NCBI RefSeq assembly: GCF_014279775.1
Contig: NZ_CP047961.1
Span: 868,001-932,000 of the forward strand
Source: Synechococcus sp. PROS-9-1
Lineage (GTDB): Bacteria > Cyanobacteriota > Cyanobacteriia > PCC-6307 > Cyanobiaceae
Direction of reading: 5' to 3'
Length of the DNA: 64,000 nucleotides
Positions within the stretch are counted from its first letter, which is position 1; each line of letters opens with the position of its first letter. Below, piece by piece: positions 8,679 through 63,959 of this stretch. Under the pieces are notes generated by a model. It did no database searches. It was not told the DNA's origin and saw only the letters and a program-made list of their open reading frames with translations. The position numbers were made by a program, and so were the translations under genes.

Positions 8679-8864
8679 TTGAGGTTCCTCAGAAATCCAG
8701 GTCCCCGTTCCGTGGCCTGGCGAGTCTGCGCCTCACAGATGTGAGGTGAACGTTGTATGTAGCTGTTGCTACTCCACCTTTATAACCATATGAGGAGCCA
8801 CTCAGTAGTTCATTGCGATACAAGAGTGGGATTGGATTTGGAGATTTGTATCTGGTTAATCCAG

Positions 8865-9868: not shown

Positions 9869-10210
9869 TGGGGGTGTGAGGAGCCAAACCTTGTGAGGAG
9901 TTGGCTAAGCACATGCTGAGCAGGTTGCGTAGGTCAGTCAACCAACTGATACGTCGGGACTTGCTCAGTGGGATTTCTGAGCCAAGATTCATCTGTGAGG
10001 AGGGCTTCTTCACGGAGTGGAAACAAGGCAACACGCCCAAAGAGAAGCCGAGAAACCCTGCCTTTGGCGGGGTTTTCTTTTGGCTTTTTGCCAGCGCGCC
10101 AAGAGCTGTTGAGCGCATGCACGATGCTTCCGTTGCAGACGAGTGACTGCTTTCCTTCAAAGGTGTTCGGCCAACTCGGCATCATCAGCTTGCGCTGACA
10201 AGCTGGGCTG
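9869..10210. other. Interval without a convincing gene
   Basis: About 340 nt. Frames are open on both strands, but none resembles a family and all cross the terminator hairpins at 9842-9868 or 10054-10080. A short rightward transcript ending at the plus-strand terminator is possible. Confidence 0.3.
10054..10080 (+). terminator. Rho-independent terminator (plus strand)
   Basis: AACCCTGCC pairs with GGCGGGGTT around a 3-nt TTT loop (one T-G pair), followed by TTCTTTT on the plus strand. Confidence 0.75.
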
Positions 10211-48036: not shown

Positions 48037-48930
48037 ATGGCACTGATCCTTCCTAGGAATTATCACAAGATCACCGCTGTTGAACGGAATCGGATCTCTT
48101 GGATTGAACCCGAGCAAGCCGAGCGTCAAGACATCCGGCCCTTGCGCATTGGCATTCTGAACATCATGCCTTTGGGGAAGCAGTACGAATTCAACCTGCT
48201 TCATCCTCTTGGTCTCTCGGTTCTTCAGATTGAACCGATCTGGATTCGCCTCCAATCTCATGCCTACCGAAGCTGGGATCAAGCCCATCTCAACCAGCAC
48301 TATGTGAGCTGGGAGGAGGCTCAGTCAGAGCGTCCATTGGATGGATTAATCATCACCGGTGCCCCCGTGGAACACTTGGCGTTTGAGGACGTCACCTATT
48401 GGCCAGAGTTGGTTGAGCTGATCAACAAGGCGCGTCACTCTTGTGCCAGCACTCTCGGCCTCTGTTGGGCTGGGTTTGCTCTGGCTTATCTCGCGGGAGT
48501 GAACAAGGTGACGTTCGATCGGAAATTGTTTGGGGTGTTTCCGATGCGAAGTCTTGTGCCTGGTCATTCCCTCATGGGAACCCAGGATGATCAATTTCTC
48601 TGTCCTCAAAGCCGATATGCGGGATTACCGGATGCGGCGATGGAATCGGCGCAACGCCAGGGACGACTAAGGCTTCTCGCCCATGGAGAGAAGGTGGGTT
48701 ACACCATTTTTGAAACGCCAGATCAGCGTCAGCTCATGCATCTTGGCCATCCCGAATACACCGTCGGAAGGCTGCAGGGAGAAATGGAGCGCGATCTGGC
48801 CCGTGGCGATGTTCCACCGCCTGAAAATTTTGACGCAGATCATCCGAGAACCCTGTGGCGTTCCCATCGAAACCTGCTCTTCCAGCAGTGGTTATGGTTC
48901 TGTTACCACCGCGTCAGCCTTCAGTCGTAA
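48037..48930 (+). CDS. metA: Homoserine O-acyltransferase MetA
   Basis: 297 residues. The glutamine-amidotransferase-like fold is marked by GILNIMPLGKQYEFNLLHPL, GLIITGAPVEHLAFEDVTYW, and the catalytic Cys in STLGLCWAGFALAY, with HLGHPEYTVGRLQGE carrying the His and Glu. It activates homoserine with an acyl group; paired with metY the product is probably acetylhomoserine. It is the last host gene before the element. Confidence 0.94.
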   Translation: MALILPRNYHKITAVERNRISWIEPEQAERQDIRPLRIGILNIMPLGKQYEFNLLHPLGLSVLQIEPIWIRLQSHAYRSWDQAHLNQHYVSWEEAQSERPLDGLIITGAPVEHLAFEDVTYWPELVELINKARHSCASTLGLCWAGFALAYLAGVNKVTFDRKLFGVFPMRSLVPGHSLMGTQDDQFLCPQSRYAGLPDAAMESAQRQGRLRLLAHGEKVGYTIFETPDQRQLMHLGHPEYTVGRLQGEMERDLARGDVPPPENFDADHPRTLWRSHRNLLFQQWLWFCYHRVSLQS

Positions 48931-55100: not shown

Positions 55101-55369
55101 AAGTGACTCTGAAATGTTCCATAGAGAAGTTCATTAACACCGTGGTGCTTGAGCTTGTCTCTGCATCGCTCACAGTCATCAGTTTTGCGGTATGACTTGC
55201 CTATGAAGTACACACCACAAGAACACTGAACTAGCTCCTCTTTGTGCTTCCCCTTCCTAGAGCTGGTCTCCGATGTAGTTGGCGAGGAGGGTACATTGCT
55301 GGAGGAGATGCTTTTGGACTTCTTCTGGGTAGTCATTCCTTTCTGCGAAGAACTTTTGGACATCGGCAA
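52106..55369 (-). CDS. T7-type single-subunit DNA-directed RNA polymerase
   Basis: 1087 residues. Motif A PTYYDSRLRIYY with catalytic Asp aligns with T7 residues around D537, followed by LNPQGSDYQKALLQFADG. DATNSGSQIIGG and PQDLYGIVAQEAQILL match the next T7 blocks. Motif B is DRKVTKKSSMCTAYG with the Arg, Lys and Tyr of the fingers, and motif C is WTHSHDAVIV with the second catalytic Asp. It is about 200 residues longer than T7 RNAP. The N-terminus has a CxC...CxxC cluster (CSCG near 50, CERC near 69) and a second pair CFYC follows DATNSGSQ; both may bind zinc. The first 37 codons overlap the preceding gene. It should transcribe element genes from its own promoters. Confidence 0.95.
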   Translation of the reverse strand: MPMSKSSSQKGMTTQKKSKSISSSNVPSSPTTSETSSRKGKHKEELVQCSCGVYFIGKSYRKTDDCERCRDKLKHHGVNELLYGTFQSHFNKLWPSFEEFYREVGPAPGPQYFLSGLIPGSAVSPGNARWLERENALPDLHFWTTTDYQELMKNAGITKLAKAAFHAYHHAPNSMVSLLTHMEQDHLELQRENLTDWQLELETMAHKVAVQKNRESDRKAVDDGRGSQSSIGREFRNKLVPLLAIRLEEHHKSALAGRSGRHHGFIAEFLSKLDYLTIAHITITTVFDCIGRGNRVKSTLSELFDQIGERLDHQAFLDYVKENDPQAFSKIDRYVLQNTVKGYEYKIGESKVMAEGLSYYFMGVKERAKLGDWCFGNFQSLTLWFETYKVLEKVGKTTHATYFLSLSHEGLKHRDLIQAAQDDRAYEAWPMVCPPLDWEFNDEGKPEKRGGYLTLHPGKYSTVIRQNKGSVPSETALGALHNMQNQPFRVNTFIYGTMKGLLSGSHEIGKFSTYERDSWDDLHRPLIDQKDLEDKWDENRHEKPAYKKAMKTLRAWHEAREVADKERVTPFRVMMMAARFLNVERFYLPTYYDSRLRIYYMVDTLNPQGSDYQKALLQFADGNPVTKENIIKVQKDLLITMANAAAVETPAGKSDKLSMEGRMSWALKRAVGFIEKDEEGNVIEIIESLEDEAEDPVSNRKFWSECDEPFQFLAALREYYEIFVWGTSNVARVPNGRDATNSGSQIIGGIIKDPKTCFYCNVTKTWVNPDGVELVADTPQDLYGIVAQEAQILLKSDPWLDNELAKARERAEQRIKQLQEAGVEDPALRVGGQEFNVPVEVVDRKVTKKSSMCTAYGASWRSKNEYISDELDKVFKHPDGQKASLCEKIIITNSAIQGQDHGFPRLAKVNKWFRNFAKACMKAGLMLVEWETPNGSKVVQEYREPYVDKVDTYAMGGAKYWQAVQNNDGLRADGVATLSFKSGYKNEIQESKTETALAANWTHSHDAVIVQNTVHDWEGNYFAVHDCFYGPAGTMDAMTAKARQALYDVITSKPLHKLVASSGLDMTPPREGKAKVEEVKDHPFTMS

Positions 55370-56264
55370 GGGTTTGAGGGACGGATAAGGTAAGAGTGCT
55401 ACTAACTCTCTTCACACGTTCAGCACGGGCAGCGGCATCATCGAACTTGAGCTTCTGTAGCTCTTTCTCGACTCGGGCTTTCTCTTCTGCTTCTTCAGCA
55501 GTGTTGAGCTTTTCCTTCTCAATCTCAGCCTCTAGTTCAGCCACTTTTGTGGACTGATCCTTCAATAGACGCTCAGCTCTTTCGAGGGATTCTCTTACAC
55601 GCTGATAGCCAGGGTTTGATGCATTGCCCCTAACTTCCTCCCATTCTTTGCTTGCTTCTTCTTTCTTTGCAGCAAACTTCGCGAGGACCTCCTCGGCCTT
55701 ACTGAGTTTTACCGTCGGCTGGGTTGCCAGTTCTTCTATCTCTTTGCAGGTGGGTGGCTCGTCTTGATCCTGAGCCTCGCATAGTACAAACTCGGCTAGA
55801 TCTTCAGGTAGCTTTGTTCGTGCTAACTGAATAACCTGATGTGGCATCCGCAGAGCAAACTCATCATCTAGCTGCATGCCCATCAGATAAGCCTCGTTTA
55901 CGGCCATCCTCATGATGTTTGAGTAGTTGCTCATCCCCTCAACTCTTTTGAGACCATTAGCCTCCATCGCAGGGTCCCACATATTCAACGAATGCCATAG
56001 TTTCAAGCACTTAGTGTCTGGGCCTATTTCAGCTCGGATCTTGCGAATCTCAGCACCCTTAGCAATCCACTCCTGTCGGCGGACCTCACGGACAACACGC
56101 TCAATAGTTCGATCAGCAACTGTCTCAATCCGTAGGTATTCAGTTGCAGCAGATAAAACAGCAGCCTGCTTACTCTCCTCCACTTCCGATACGTCAATGG
56201 CGGAGTTGTCAACCTGTACTGGCTTCAGCTCATCATCAAGGGAAACAATTGTGGAAAGAGTCAT
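55257..56264 (-). CDS. Coiled-coil element protein, unknown
   Basis: 335 residues. The N-terminal and middle parts are helical (ERVVREVRRQEWIAKGAEIR, YSNIMRMAVNEAYLMGMQLD), then about residues 205-290 form a Glu/Lys-rich coiled coil (KVAELEAEIEKEKLNTAEEA). The middle has a faint resemblance to DNA-binding partition-type helices, which is not secure. Its 3' end overlaps the polymerase start by 113 nt in another frame, so dosage of the two may be linked. Confidence 0.75.
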   Translation of the reverse strand: MTLSTIVSLDDELKPVQVDNSAIDVSEVEESKQAAVLSAATEYLRIETVADRTIERVVREVRRQEWIAKGAEIRKIRAEIGPDTKCLKLWHSLNMWDPAMEANGLKRVEGMSNYSNIMRMAVNEAYLMGMQLDDEFALRMPHQVIQLARTKLPEDLAEFVLCEAQDQDEPPTCKEIEELATQPTVKLSKAEEVLAKFAAKKEEASKEWEEVRGNASNPGYQRVRESLERAERLLKDQSTKVAELEAEIEKEKLNTAEEAEEKARVEKELQKLKFDDAAARAERVKRVSSTLTLSVPQTLADVQKFFAERNDYPEEVQKHLLQQCTLLANYIGDQL

Positions 56265-56507: not shown

Positions 56508-57083
56508 TCAGGCGTTAATGAGGTCGTAGAAATAGTCTTCCCAGTCAGCCCAGATTGCTGTCCCTTCATGAACCCCATACCCGAGTTCTGTGACTAGGAA
56601 ATCGACAATTCGTCGGTCTCGATAAAGTTGCTCATAACCAGGCAACCCCTCCTCCTGTTCCAGTCGCTGTGTCACCTGTATGCAGGGTGAGAACTTGTTG
56701 TATTCCCTCAGTGCTCTAAGTAGGTCCATACGTACCTTCTTATCTTTTTTGGCCATTGGTGACTCCTGGAGCCATGCCTTATAGGCTTTCATGATCAACT
56801 TCTGATCACCATATTGAGTCTTCTGATAGCGATCAATTAGACGCCTCTTGGTCTCTTCAGGCGGTACGAAATTGGGGCTCCCTGGTGTTGCTTCCCACTC
56901 CTCCATCGTCATACAGAAGATCGGGGCAAGTCTTTGAATCATGCTCATCATCCCCAGTGGGAACATCTTCTTTCCGTCAGAATCAGCTGGTACTGCAAGA
57001 TGTTGTTGGAAGCGATTCCACTCTGCCTGAGTGATTCCCTCCATAGGGATAGTCACGCCATGAGCCTTGATTGAAAAAGTCAT
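56508..57083 (-). CDS. Element protein, unknown
   Basis: 191 residues. Segments include VTIPMEGITQAEWNRFQQHL and LIDRYQKTQYGDQKLIMKAY, ending with acidic/aromatic WADWEDYFYDLINA. It overlaps the integrase stop as ATGA, so they are translationally coupled. No family is recognised; it might be a recombination accessory protein by position only. Confidence 0.7.
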   Translation of the reverse strand: MTFSIKAHGVTIPMEGITQAEWNRFQQHLAVPADSDGKKMFPLGMMSMIQRLAPIFCMTMEEWEATPGSPNFVPPEETKRRLIDRYQKTQYGDQKLIMKAYKAWLQESPMAKKDKKVRMDLLRALREYNKFSPCIQVTQRLEQEEGLPGYEQLYRDRRIVDFLVTELGYGVHEGTAIWADWEDYFYDLINA

Positions 57084-57913
57084 AATGAGTCGATTGCGGA
57101 TTTACGGGCTTTGTCGGAGAGATGCGTATAACGCATAGACATCTCCAGGGTTTTGTGACCTAGGACCTTGGCAATGTTCTGCACAGGGACACCACGCTCA
57201 GCGAGCCAGGTTCCAGTGGTATGCCTCAGAGAGTGATAGACAAGCTTTTTGTCCATCTCTAGATAGTCACGGACTTTCTTGAATTGCCTCAGCAGCTGAT
57301 CGCCATTAGTGAAGTCAAAGATCTTGTAGTTAGGACCTTCGCCATCACACCTAGTAACCAGGATGTCTCTCAGGTTCGGGTGAATGTCAGTGCTGTAGTT
57401 CTCCCCGTTCTTTGTATCTCTGAACTCAATGGTGTCATTGATCAGATCTATATCCCTTACTTCCAGGCCCAGCAGGTTGGCTCTGCGGCAGCCTGTATAG
57501 AGGGAGAAGAGAATAGCGTCAGCTAGCTCGTTGTACTGAAAGATGTCCTTAGCGGCATGAACCATCTGATCGATGTCCTCCTGTGTGAAGAACCCCTTTC
57601 GTTGATTGTTCTCCTGTAGCTTCTTCAGCTTCGGGTGCTTATCAATAATCTCCAGATCCAGCATCTCTGTAAACACAGAGTTCATGAAGGAAAGGATCCT
57701 ATTGATCGTTGCAGGCTTGTACTTCTCAAGCAGGAGCTTTGTCCGTGCTGCTGCTAGGTCTCCTTTAGTGATCTTCTTGATCTGCTTGTTACCACCGAAG
57801 AGGCGAATCACATGATCTCGAAGTGAGTTAGCTGGGGCTATCCATACCCCTTTAGGTGTTCTCCAGGTGGGGCGTGTTTCAGCTGCCAGGTTGATTGCGT
57901 CGATCAGTTTCAT
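57080..57913 (-). CDS. Tyrosine recombinase/integrase
   Basis: 277 residues. The N-terminal SAM-like domain spans about 1-100 (KITKGDLAAARTKLL, NSVFTEMLDLEII). The catalytic domain has TGCRRANLLGL (first Arg), DTKNGENYSTDI (Lys), YHSLRHTTGTWLAERG (HxxR) and LGHKTLEMSMRYTHLS (His and nucleophile Tyr). All active residues are present. It is shorter than lambda integrase and lacks an arm-binding domain. It should integrate and excise the element; the attachment site is not visible. Confidence 0.94.
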   Translation of the reverse strand: MKLIDAINLAAETRPTWRTPKGVWIAPANSLRDHVIRLFGGNKQIKKITKGDLAAARTKLLLEKYKPATINRILSFMNSVFTEMLDLEIIDKHPKLKKLQENNQRKGFFTQEDIDQMVHAAKDIFQYNELADAILFSLYTGCRRANLLGLEVRDIDLINDTIEFRDTKNGENYSTDIHPNLRDILVTRCDGEGPNYKIFDFTNGDQLLRQFKKVRDYLEMDKKLVYHSLRHTTGTWLAERGVPVQNIAKVLGHKTLEMSMRYTHLSDKARKSAIDSL

Positions 57914-58921: not shown

Positions 58922-58945
58922 AAAAAAGAGGCTTCCGAAGAAGCC
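58922..58945 (-). terminator. Rho-independent terminator after the tmRNA gene
   Basis: On the minus strand GGCTTC-TTCG-GAAGCC, a stable UUCG tetraloop stem, is followed by TCTTTTTT. It ends the tmRNA transcript and separates it from the operon that begins at 58901. Confidence 0.93.
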
Positions 58946-59136
58946 CCGATGTCAGTCACGGACCTCAGGCTGCGATAGCCAAGGTGCGCTCTGTACGTTT
59001 GATGTTGTTGGCGTTTAACCAGAAGAACCATCACCCAGTCGAAAGCCAGGACACCCCCGTAAATGGAGGTGAGCGGAATCGAACCGCTGTCCTGGATGAA
59101 GGTGTATGCGTACAAGGCCCACATACGGGCTCTCAA
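58946..59136 (-). ncRNA. ssrA: Permuted (two-piece) transfer-messenger RNA
   Basis: Minus-strand order is acceptor piece then coding piece, as in permuted tmRNAs. The acceptor piece ends with T-arm AGCGG-TTCGATT-CCGCT and CACCTCC plus A73 (59064-59088). After only five bases (TTTAC) the coding piece starts GGGGGTG at 59058, followed by TCCTGGCTTTCGAC, the usual tmRNA 5' sequence. The two ends form a 7-bp acceptor stem with a G3-U70 pair (alanine identity). CTGGGTGATGG (59028-59038) pairs with CCTTCATCCAGG (59091-59102) as helix 2. The tag frame from GCC 59012 to TGA 58965 reads ANNIKRTERTLAIAA. A terminator follows. tmRNA rescues stalled ribosomes; this copy is element-borne. Confidence 0.92.
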
Positions 59137-59289
59137 TCAATCAGGCCACTTCAGGCCGTTCTTGATGAACCACTCCTTAGAGCGGTAGATCATTGAACCC
59201 TTGAAGATCGGCTTCTGTTCAGGAGGCTCGAATGCCTCCTTTAACGCATCCCAGGTTTCATCTTCCCAGGATTTCTTTTCCTCTTCCAC
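59137..59289 (-). CDS. 50-residue acidic element protein
   Basis: From GTG 59289 it reads MEEEKKSWEDETWDALKEAF and ends WFIKNGLKWPD. It overlaps the HNH gene 3' end by 32 nt and ends just before the tmRNA acceptor piece. Codon content and the charged composition fit a small phage protein. The GTG start lacks a strong ribosome site, so confidence is moderate. Confidence 0.5.
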   Translation of the reverse strand: MEEEKKSWEDETWDALKEAFEPPEQKPIFKGSMIYRSKEWFIKNGLKWPD

Positions 59290-59608
59290 GTTTCCAGTCC
59301 TCCCAGAATTGTTGATGAATAGGCTCGTCTCGCATGAACTCAGACCAATCTCTTCCGAATGGCTCGCAGTACTTATGCCACCAGTCGTGGCAGAACTTGC
59401 AAAGCGTTATCAGATTCGATGGATCTGTCGGATGTCCTCCATCCCTCAATGCGGTCACATGATGTAGCTGAAGGTTTGCCAGGCCAAGCGCCTGATGTTC
59501 CTCCAACGTCATCCCACACCGACTACATACCGGTGCAGGAACGACCTTCTTATTTCGACGCGCAAGCTCGTATTGCTTACGCGCAACCTTTACCTCATCC
59601 CTCATCAC
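59258..59608 (-). CDS. HNH endonuclease
   Basis: 116 residues. The HNH core is CSRCGMTLEEHQALG, then LQLHHVTALRDGG, and NLITLCKFCHDWWHK, with two CxxC pairs for zinc and the catalytic His residues. HNH enzymes in phages serve DNA packaging or as homing nucleases. It lies close upstream of the tmRNA gene on the same strand. Overlaps the previous gene by 14 nt. Confidence 0.9.
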   Translation of the reverse strand: MMRDEVKVARKQYELARRNKKVVPAPVCSRCGMTLEEHQALGLANLQLHHVTALRDGGHPTDPSNLITLCKFCHDWWHKYCEPFGRDWSEFMRDEPIHQQFWEDWKRGRGKEILGR

Positions 59609-60306: not shown

Positions 60307-60480
60307 TCAGTAAAGGATTGACTGCATGTATTCGTAATCGTCTGTATTCGGCTCGTAGTCCAAAGGACGCATGCCGGATGCCATAGGCCCATAAAGGAAG
60401 ATCCCTTCAGGCTGTAGCTCCTCTGCCAAGTCGCATGCATCGATGTCGATGTACAGGCTCGACTCTTGTTCGTAAGACAT
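60307..60480 (-). CDS. Small acidic element protein
   Basis: 57 residues from ATG 60480: MSYEQESSLYIDIDACDLAE, then FLYGPMASGMRPLDYEPN. The start is chosen for the conserved leader and CTGGAGAATCAA ribosome region; a longer frame to 60663 crosses the upstream gene. No family is recognised. Confidence 0.7.
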   Translation of the reverse strand: MSYEQESSLYIDIDACDLAEELQPEGIFLYGPMASGMRPLDYEPNTDDYEYMQSILY

Positions 60481-60541
60481 TTGATTCTCCAGATGTTTAG
60501 TGGCCCTCTTCGGGCCGGGTTGGTACCCGGTGATTAACCGG
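60481..60541 (-). promoter_or_regulatory. Hairpin leader (GGCCC/GGGCC) with a second stem
   Basis: GGCCC-GAAGA-GGGCC at 60502-60516 lies 21 nt before ATG 60480, with ACTAAACATCTGGAGAATCAA between. A further stem CCGGGT-ACCA-ACCCGG follows upstream. Confidence 0.7.
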
Positions 60542-60605
60542 ATACCCCTCTCACTACTTACGGCAGAAACAGGCCAAAAACGGCGTATGCCAGTTGCAAG
60601 AACTG

Positions 60606-61562
60606 TCACACCGTCGTCCAGATCCCTTCCGCATGCAGCCAATCCACAGGCTTCAGATCCCATGACTTGATCGTTATCGGACCCGCCATGATTGCCCTCG
60701 CCCTTCTCCTTGCTCGATGCAAGTTCTCTCTGCCTGACCTCCCCAGCTGACCCATGCCTGCTGCATTCAGTTCCAACGCTTCCGTTTCCTTAGGCGTCAG
60801 ACCACCTGCAATCAGATATGCAAGAAGCTCCGAATACGCAACCAGTTCGACCCGCTTCGTATCAGGAACCATCTCTTCAGGATTCATGCCGTCTAACTGA
60901 TCCTCTGTAAACAGATCCGCTAGATGACAAATCCTGCCCCTGTATGACTGACGCTCAGACCACAGCTCTTCTTTATTAATCAGAAGATTCTTAGGAACCG
61001 GCATACCCAGCACCACAGTCTTTGCCTTCAGCCCTCCTCGACTTACTTCACCCAGCGCCTGTCTCCTTGCAGACTGACCGACTCGCCACTCCTCAGGCGT
61101 GAAGCCAAGGATGTAGCCAGATCGTTTTGCAACCTGCTTGAAGCTGTCCGGAACTGTCTGAAGTCGGATCGATCCAGGCTGAATTGTTGCCAGCAACCCG
61201 CCATCTTTTTGACGACGCTTGCCTACAACGACTGCCTTCTCTGCCCTCAGCTTTCTTGCCTTCAGACATGCATCCATCGCCTTCCTGTTTTTGAAGGTAT
61301 GAATGCTCCTCTCTGACTTCGCATGATCTTTCCCGCCATTGCTCCACAGCCCTTTGCTGTTTTGCTTTGATCGGATCATCGATCCACTTGCTCGCCAAGG
61401 CAGGCTGTCCCAGCCATCACTAAGGATCGGATGATGCAGCTGTCCAATCACGGACACACCCTCGATCTCTGTAGGAATGCCGATCTGCTTTCTATGGACT
61501 TCCATCCATGCAGACGCTTCAAGCTGTCGCTGTTTCTTGATTGCTTTGCCTTTCTCGAACAT
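60606..61562 (-). CDS. Element protein with a sigma-region-4-like C-terminal helix pattern
   Basis: 318 residues from ATG 61562, chosen for CTACGGAGAATCCG upstream. The N-terminal 120 residues are basic (MFEKGKAIKKQRQLEASAW, KNRKAMDACLKARKLRAEKA). Near residues 270-305, GLTPKETEALELNAAGMGQL followed by GRSGRENLHRARRRAR resembles the last helix-turn-helix of sigma factors, with a shortened turn. DNA binding is plausible. An activity with the element polymerase is inference. It is the largest gene upstream of the polymerase operon. Confidence 0.7.
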   Translation of the reverse strand: MFEKGKAIKKQRQLEASAWMEVHRKQIGIPTEIEGVSVIGQLHHPILSDGWDSLPWRASGSMIRSKQNSKGLWSNGGKDHAKSERSIHTFKNRKAMDACLKARKLRAEKAVVVGKRRQKDGGLLATIQPGSIRLQTVPDSFKQVAKRSGYILGFTPEEWRVGQSARRQALGEVSRGGLKAKTVVLGMPVPKNLLINKEELWSERQSYRGRICHLADLFTEDQLDGMNPEEMVPDTKRVELVAYSELLAYLIAGGLTPKETEALELNAAGMGQLGRSGRENLHRARRRARAIMAGPITIKSWDLKPVDWLHAEGIWTTV

Positions 61563-63047: not shown

Positions 63048-63286
63048 CGATCACTGGTAGGCGAAGTCTTTTAACGTCTTACTCAGGACGAATAGTTGTG
63101 GATCTTTTTGCAGGCGTCCACATTCCCGCGGGTTAGTGATCCCGAAACACGCCGTCTTTTATATGGGATGAGACGGACTAGCGAAAACCCGCTGCTCTTA
63201 TATGTAGGCTCGCAGCTGCCCTGACTCATTGGATCTGCGGGAGGTCAAGCCCTCGATGATTTATTAAGGCTCATCGGGAAGCCAAG
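63048..63286 (-). other. Structured non-coding stretch
   Basis: About 240 nt without a gene. On the minus strand CTAGTCCGTCTCATCCCATATAAAAGACGG (split here as GCTAGTCC... and ...AAAAGACGG) and GTCCTGAGTAAGACG with TTAAAAGAC echo the other element hairpins. Confidence 0.4.
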
Positions 63287-63367
63287 TGGAGCAGGAGGGA
63301 ATCGAACCCTCTCAACTCTCGTGGCCGTCATGCGGAATTACGAAAGCTGCCTACCAAGTGCTGTCCC
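63287..63367 (-). ncRNA. tRNA-like structure with alanine identity pair
   Basis: GGGACAG and CTGCTCC form a 7-bp acceptor with one A-C mismatch and a G3-U70 pair; the following base is A. GAGGG-TTCGATT-CCCTC is a perfect T-arm. The middle folds as one long arm, CTTTCGT with ACGAGAG enclosing CCG/CGG, instead of separate D and anticodon arms. It is 81 nt including A73, so it is not a standard tRNA. Confidence 0.55.
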
Positions 63368-63374
63368 AGAAAAG

Positions 63375-63392
63375 GCCCTTTTTAAGAGGGGC
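63375..63392 (-). promoter_or_regulatory. Hairpin B (GCCC/GGGC)
   Basis: GCCC-CTCTTAAAAA-GGGC, preceded by GAGCTA. It is the pair of hairpin A, with a compensatory change and the same 10-nt loop, and it lies just upstream of the tRNA-like structure. Confidence 0.7.
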
Positions 63393-63405
63393 TAGCTCAG
63401 GTTGA

Positions 63406-63840: not shown

Positions 63841-63864
63841 TGTTCATTTAGCGATTGGATAGCG

Positions 63865-63882
63865 GTCCTTTTAAAGAGGGAC
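63865..63882 (-). promoter_or_regulatory. Hairpin A (GTCC/GGAC)
   Basis: GTCC-CTCTTTAAAA-GGAC, preceded by GAGCTA, located between the tRNA-like structure at 63891 and the gene starting at 63840. It covaries with hairpin B. Confidence 0.7.
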
Positions 63883-63890
63883 TAGCTCAA

Positions 63891-63959
63891 TGGAGGTGAC
63901 GGGAATCGAACCCGCTGGTTGTCGATGCCAAACCGCAACCCGTTACCAAAGCCACCCCC
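63891..63959 (-). ncRNA. Short tRNA-like structure, TGG-like loop
   Basis: GGGGGTG with CACCTCC gives the same acceptor stem as the tmRNA, including G3-U70, and A73 follows. CGGG-TTCGATT-CCCG is a T-arm. The middle forms TTGCG...CG(A)CAA around a loop containing TTTGGCA, which could present TGG (Pro-like) but has C37. A D-stem is not seen and the length is 69 nt. It may be a degenerate or specialised phage tRNA. Confidence 0.5.

Follow-up and report, generated by a model that had tools for sequence, protein, structure and literature searches.

A compact two-piece tmRNA gene in an integrated mobile element of Synechococcus sp. PROS-9-1

In the transfer-messenger RNA (tmRNA) pathway, the RNA is charged with alanine, enters ribosomes in an SmpB-dependent manner and adds a tag to the nascent chain, which is degraded by ClpXP-type proteases. 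We describe a circularly permuted, or two-piece, tmRNA gene found in Synechococcus sp. PROS-9-1 as part of an integrated mobile element. The window we have analyzed is a stretch of 64,000 nucleotides (contig NZ_CP047961.1, G000:C1:868001-932000) from a genome of 2.27 Mb in one contig. Positions are those of the window, unless another sequence is named.

Phage-borne two-piece tmRNAs are already known. PMC9004378 reports tmRNA genes in 402 of 18,146 phage genomes, with 133 unique structures; 53 of these structures are in two pieces, and 50 of the 53 come from marine or aquatic phages. The roles proposed there are upkeep of the hijacked machinery or tagging of host proteins. S-SSM7, S-CAM1, S-CAM3, the marine virus AG-345-P14 and the OM43 phage Melnitz (PMC9004378) likewise carry a permuted tmRNA in a viral or mobile genome. 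In our BLAST searches, tmRNA pieces are found in the cyanophages S-SSM7, S-SSM6a, S-CAM1 and S-CAM3 and in AG-345-P14. The four phage genes fetched (S-SSM7, S-CAM1, S-CAM3 and AG-345-P14) are full permuted tmRNAs: The cyanobacterial model scores them at 109-132 bits, and their tags are long, for example ANTSDSAANNIVAFSRSTVAA. Unlike these four, the gene described here is compact, and the integrated element to which it belongs has a T7-like polymerase. As far as the literature searched shows, these three traits (compactness, integration and an own polymerase) are new.

The permuted tmRNA and the host gene

The gene is found on the minus strand, at 58928-59135, both by reading the sequence and with the Rfam permuted model. 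Its parts are given in Table 1. From 5' to 3', the RNA begins with a hairpin (GAGCCC...GGGCC), followed by the 3' strand of helix 2, the T-arm AGCGGTTCGATTCCGCT and the acceptor strand CACCTCC with A73. After the spacer TTTAC come GGGGGTG, a D-loop that contains TTTCGAC, the other (5') strand of helix 2, then UUAAAC, the tag and a UUCG terminator. The acceptor stem has seven pairs, including G3-U70. An alanine codon follows UUAAAC in frame, the Rfam permuted model sets the start of the tag at this codon, and the frame ends in -IAA and a stop: The tag has 15 open codons and an AA end. The initial annotation had proposed a circularly permuted tmRNA with a five-base gap between its pieces, G3-U70, A73, TTCGAC, helix 2 pairing, a tag ending in TGA and a UUCG terminator; every one of these is found in the sequence, with the acceptor piece preceding the coding piece.

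The Rfam family tmRNA_permuted (RF04321) recognizes the gene with 61.6 bits, above its cut-off of 47 (E value 1.7e-9 in the window, 1.4e-11 in the whole genome). ARAGORN also calls a permuted tmRNA at this locus, but with the wrong ends and tag. When the two pieces are folded together, the acceptor forms 7 pairs, the T-arm 5, and helix 2 has 11 pairs around one mismatch, with an energy of -34.4 kcal/mol. In the alignment with the cyanobacterial model (RF01851), the 5' and 3' hairpins line up with those of the model. The order of the pieces, the G3-U70 acceptor, the TTCGAC D-loop, the T-arm, helix 2 and a tag of the ANNI...AA type are shared with RF04321 and RF01851. On the other hand, this is a second copy in its genome, it falls below the RF01851 cut-off, it is shorter (25 nucleotides between the TTCGAC motif and the tag, versus 52-53 in the host genes parsed) and the core of its tag is new.

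The same genome has an ordinary ssrA at 1907171-1907458 (311 bits), with the tag ANNIVRFSRQAAPVAA; the tag of the element gene is its own, ANNIKRTERTLAIAA, as had been suggested. The presence of this separate ssrA, which the initial annotation had asked to be checked, rules out that the element gene is simply the host copy. We have parsed 41 host-type loci: the copy of this genome, 30 from the 335 genomes with a match in a search of 400 family genomes, and ten further ones. All 41 tags contain ANN/ANK-I-V-R/S-FSRQ-x-APVAA, and the distance from TTCGAC to AN(N/K)I is 52 nucleotides in 36 loci and 53 in the other five. The tag core of the element tmRNA differs from this host core. Permuted tmRNAs are found at 88 viral places, and none of the 45 tags that could be parsed there resembles the element tag; since no tag was parsed in the other 43, 14 of which have less than 200 nucleotides of contig left, this negative result is incomplete.

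The T-arm stretch GGACAGCGGTTCGATTCCGCTCA is identical in the element tmRNA and in the host ssrA, while its counterpart in the four phage tmRNAs is either GGACAGGGGTTCGATTCCCCTCA or GGACAGGAGTTCGACTCTCCTCA. This difference points to the capture of the element tmRNA from a host ssrA. The description of the gene as a phage-type tmRNA is not supported in this wording: The T-arm stretch is an exact match to the host, whereas T-stem, tag and size are all different in the four cyanophage tmRNAs fetched.

The integrated element and its relatives

The tmRNA gene is part of an insertion of about 16.8 kb at the 3' end of a homoserine O-succinyltransferase gene, which we take to be metA. The insertion lies between two copies of a perfect 12-bp repeat, CTTCAGTCGTAA, with host DNA to the left of the left copy and to the right of the right copy. 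We have compared the metA neighbourhood in six relatives (G101, G075, G239, G193, G123 and G277). Two genomes of the same genus, G101 and G075, have an empty site: The genes that follow the right repeat are found within about 50 bases of metA, with 93% and 90% DNA identity, respectively. The same genes come next after metA in G239 and G193, with about 66% identity, and no match downstream of metA was found in G123 and G277 in the stretch compared. A pattern search for an empty attachment site gave only the right end of the element itself and one unrelated locus. With an integrase, a flanking direct repeat and empty sites in relatives, this is an integrative mobile element. The initial annotation was right in placing the tmRNA within a mobile element and outside the host ssrA locus. 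Integration at ssrA is ruled out: The repeat used for attachment belongs to the 3' end of metA, where relatives have empty sites.

Table 1. Coordinates of the element, its tmRNA and other features discussed in the text
Feature	Position	Strand	Source or remark
Homoserine O-succinyltransferase (Pfam HTS), integration target	48037..48930	+	
Left attachment repeat CTTCAGTCGTAA, last bases of metA	48919..48930	+	
T7-like single-subunit RNA polymerase, 1087 amino acids	52106..55369	-	
335-amino acid protein, common to two related elements	55257..56264	-	
Tyrosine integrase	57080..57913	-	Pfam / PHROGs
Coding piece (5' acceptor strand, TTTCGAC D-loop, helix 2 5' strand, tag, terminator)	58928..59058	-	
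Terminator hairpin GGGGCTTC-TTCG-GAAGCCTC, UUCG loop, T run	58928..58947	-	Terminator scan
Tag reading frame GCC...TGA, ANNIKRTERTLAIAA + TGA	58965..59012	-	
Acceptor 5' strand GGGGGTG	59058-59052	-	
Five-base spacer TTTAC separating the pieces	59059..59063	-	Sequence
Acceptor piece (5' hairpin, helix 2 3' strand, T-arm, 3' acceptor strand, A73)	59064..59135	-	5' end inferred
A73	59064	-	
Acceptor 3' strand CACCTCC	59071-59065	-	
HNH endonuclease-like protein	59258..59608	-	Pfam / PHROGs
tRNA-like structure 2 (G3-U70, ten-pair middle helix)	63284..63367	-	
tRNA-like structure 1 (acceptor with G3-U70, T-loop, without D-stem)	63888..63959	-	
Right attachment repeat CTTCAGTCGTAA	G000:C1:933701-933712		Starts 1,701 bases beyond window end
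Tag-less tmRNA genes in phages pSt2308 and LuckySocke	L443:691-768, L444:691-768		

The polymerase has an intact reading frame, and its profile matches the T7 RNA polymerase in the PDB (E value 6e-54). The positions aligned to the catalytic Asp/Lys/Tyr/Asp of the T7 enzyme are conserved in all four aligned polymerases. The T7-like RNA polymerases of the cyanophages Syn5 and S-CBP42 are homologous to that of the element, with 26.6% identity. Among the 400 family genomes, 29 match the polymerase at an E value of 1e-3 or lower, in most cases weakly. The near relatives are found in G279 (53% identity), G265 (41-42%) and G101 (34-35%), with fragments in G253 and G273. None of the 15 pattern matches in the viral contigs searched was confirmed as a relative. 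The search of genome contigs gave one relative, a contig of 14829 bases from Synechococcus sp. AG-670-B23 (L083, G279:C48), which matches genes of the two element ends, and their order is unchanged. This contig stops near both element ends; by eye, a gene resembling thioredoxin is present and, near 10009, a hairpin resembling a T-arm.

A scan with Pfam and PHROGs took 17 open reading frames of the element, leaving out the one at 60307-60663 (118 amino acids) and those shorter than 90 amino acids. No capsid or portal family was found in these 17 frames, and most of them belong to no family. In PHROGs, a terminase small subunit family is weakly matched by the HNH protein, among many HNH matches. 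Among the genes found, the phage-like ones are the polymerase, the integrase and the HNH protein, another reason why the term phage-type is unsupported as worded. Elsewhere in the window, there is a Glutamine-II riboswitch at 8696-8755 (minus strand) and a Cyano-1 RNA at 9989-10053 (plus strand).

tRNA-like structures and tag-less domains in viral contigs

The T-arm and acceptor stretch of the tmRNA recurs at 63889-63912 (92%) and at 63285-63308 (75%), each time within a tRNA-like structure. By eye, each of them consists of an acceptor of seven positions, including G3-U70, a T-arm and a middle helix, with no D-stem; the acceptor of structure 2 has one mismatch. The minimum-energy fold agrees for structure 2 and partly for structure 1, where the outer stem has nine pairs and the T-arm three. 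The TTCGAC D-loop is absent from both. With the tmRNA model they stay below the cut-off: 31.6 bits (structure 1) and 27.0 bits (structure 2) in the genome search, 23.0 and 27.0 bits in a separate scan. The tRNA model gives 14.7 for structure 1 and does not list structure 2 at an E value of 10. A phage BLAST search with structure 2 gave short, weak matches only. Both structures are tRNA-like. Alternatively, RNase P may cut at them during processing, as a hairpin with a short run of T stands immediately before each one (seen by eye; the terminator scan does not include these hairpins). A near-identical hairpin stretch, GAGCTAG(C/T)CCCTCTT...AAAAGG, is found after structure 1 (63860-63888) and before structure 2 (63371-63398).

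In mycobacteriophage DS6A, PMC4131195 and PMC11915505 describe a tmRNA as "TLD only", that is, reduced to its tRNA-like domain (TLD), and a similar molecule is reported to inhibit tmRNA (PMC4131195). A "Standard, no CDS" class is reported with nine unique sequences of 97,179. The DS6A tmRNA is a virus-borne relative of the element tmRNA, but it lacks the tag which the latter has. The literature searched, which leaves out most subscription papers, gave no account of a TLD-only class that is widespread in viruses.

We have scanned IMG/VR with a pattern for the tRNA-like domain of tmRNA without room for a tag, which gave at least 120 stretches (L241-L359), such as L244:7634-7712 and L299:1745-1823. 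The viral status of these contigs rests on that collection; when ten long neighbouring proteins were tested, seven had a PHROG match. The matches listed, together with a copy of one of the contigs in a cellular genome, amount to 121 places with 82 unique sequences of 61-81 nucleotides. ARAGORN is silent at 120 of these places. A tRNA gene is found at 25 of the 121 listed loci, within 1 kb at 20 of them. A looser pattern, without the D-loop motif, gives mostly tRNA-Ala.

Bases that the pattern prescribes are necessarily conserved, while helix 2 lies outside the pattern. In 33 sequences picked from the 82 for clean alignment, helix 2 is paired in 89.2% of the cells, versus 53.7% in shuffles, and double-sided changes are found in 93 cells, versus a shuffle mean of 30.5; none of 500 shuffles reaches either value. 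The covariation of helix 2 is 0.920, versus at most 0.138 in slid controls. The number of helix 2 pairs with a double-sided change (6 versus 6.0) does not discriminate. Rfam places five of seven loci scanned above the tmRNA cut-off (51-66 bits), two from the strict IMG/VR pattern and three from the looser one, and the other two below it (26 and 22 bits). A model built from the 33 sequences detects unannotated genes adjoining tRNA genes in the Streptomyces phages pSt2308 (66.8 bits) and LuckySocke (65.2 bits), which have 61.0 and 57.1 bits with the Rfam tmRNA model. Judging from these patterns and models, tag-less tmRNA domains are common in viral contigs.

BLAST searches against phages gave varied results for individual loci. 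L241 and L299 have no match, and L244 matches 29 nucleotides in S-CRM01. L238 is matched in part by four records, with coverage below 80% in each; among them is the annotated, full-length tmRNA of a crAss-like phage. For L285, Streptomyces phages are among 30 records; at this locus an ARAGORN tmRNA call overlaps the TLD-only match. A tag-less domain is also found at L240:3956-4033 (G057:C3, the same as L311, IMGVR_UViG_2716884398_000001), in a 130 kb contig from a picocyanobacterial genome which is also catalogued as viral. At L176:3239-3941, a ROOL RNA adjoins a tag-less domain in a contig rich in tRNA genes.

The fact that the tmRNA model scores the two structures of the element higher than the tRNA model had suggested that they were tag-less tmRNAs. 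This identity was dropped: The dedicated viral model gives them 32.0 and 28.5 bits, which cannot be told apart from the 29.8 bits of a host tRNA-Ala, versus 65-67 bits for the two phage genes outside the model. Model scores do not place them in the DS6A kind.

Possible function and alternatives

We hold, with moderate confidence, that the gene encodes a functional two-piece tmRNA of the element, which arose from a picocyanobacterial ssrA by capture and later shortening. The anatomy of the gene, the existence of a separate host copy and the mobile context are established here, and a function is plausible; processing, charging, tagging, degradation, timing and promoter use are inferred. A precursor would be transcribed along the row of minus-strand genes of the element, and tRNA-processing enzymes would cut it at both acceptor ends, releasing the acceptor piece and the coding piece. 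These would pair via the acceptor stem and helix 2, be charged with alanine by virtue of G3-U70, bind the SmpB of the host and enter ribosomes that have stalled. There, the ANNIKRTERTLAIAA tag, a degron ending in AA, would be added to the nascent chain, and a ClpXP-type protease reading this end would degrade the tagged product. An own tmRNA copy could rescue ribosomes once the T7-like polymerase takes over and transcription of the host ssrA drops. A separate supply would make sense if the element shifts transcription to its own polymerase. The roles put forward in the initial annotation, rescue of ribosomes during takeover or retagging of host products, are conjectural.

Several results weigh against a functional tmRNA. 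The threshold check proposed in the initial annotation had a divided outcome: The permuted model accepts the gene, the cyanobacterial one (cyano_tmRNA, RF01851) gives 65.9 bits, below its cut-off of 70. Going by these scores, it should not be filed as a typical cyano_tmRNA. About 14 nucleotides remain between helix 2 and the resume codon, where RF01851 columns are deleted; this probably leaves too little room for pseudoknot 1, and the columns after the tag are largely deleted as well, so that the usual pseudoknot 1 and downstream helices appear to be missing or unrecognisable. The energy of the joint fold is reached by 9 of 500 mononucleotide shuffles, and the fold is weaker (z -1.5) if the ends of the pieces are off by a few bases; fold energy alone gives only mild support. 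No sigma-70-like promoter was detected near the tmRNA on its strand: The 5.2 kb scanned gave one match, versus 4.1 expected by chance. At an E value of 1, there is no Rfam tmRNA match in the related elements (the G279 contig, L083, and 20 kb around the G265 and G101 polymerases, L084 and L085); therefore the tmRNA is, as far as seen, an accessory gene of one element. Finally, although a permuted-tmRNA search with strict filters gave a match over the cut-off in 332 of the 400 family genomes, only six genomes, including this one, have two matches, and the other second copies examined (G239, G032 and G013) are partial and of the host type.

These three partial copies (L088, G239:C1:862774-862885; L090, G032:C11:308475-308704; L089, G013:C8:15518-15713) keep the host-type tag sequence or part of it and were possibly left by integrations. 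The second matches in G268 and G320 have 34 bits. The sole match in G366 is a shortened host-type gene, and G315 and G357 have one weak match each.

The apparent absence of the pseudoknot and post-tag regions, the lack of a tmRNA match in the related elements scanned and the partial nature of the other second copies examined would also suit a decaying captured ssrA, which would have kept its tRNA-like part and lost its pseudoknots and the ability to tag. We find this unlikely, but of some weight: The gene retains the pairing of acceptor and helix 2, an open 15-codon tag ending in AA and a strong terminator, even though the core of the tag has fully diverged from that of the host, and a decaying copy would not be expected to retain them.

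A wider version of the functional reading, which we offer only as a doubtful conjecture, is a module for transcription plus rescue. The own polymerase would make a minimal permuted tmRNA without pseudoknots, trans-translation and the degron would come under control of the element at induction, and the two tRNA-like structures would dampen the host tmRNA.

It is quite improbable that the gene is a competitor of the host tmRNA, which would occupy SmpB and dampen host trans-translation with no replacement. According to PMC4131195, which cites Mao 2009, a molecule reduced to little more than the TLD is reported to inhibit tmRNA strongly, perhaps by titration of SmpB, and the same element has two more tRNA-like structures 4-5 kb away. 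Nevertheless, a competitor has no need of the full tag frame and stop kept here, and those two structures score no better than a host tRNA-Ala with the tag-less model. A scar of integration, in which an element using ssrA as its attachment site carries off a piece of the host gene, can be practically discarded, given the metA repeat, the empty sites of the relatives and a tmRNA gene that lies in the middle of the element, with both pieces and a different tag.

If the element tmRNA is functional, it would be a natural minimal two-piece tmRNA, which could reveal the dispensable parts of tmRNA, and the element would be a mobile element which provides for itself a polymerase as well as ribosome rescue. 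In addition, with tag-less tmRNA domains being common in viral contigs, viral interference with trans-translation becomes directly testable.
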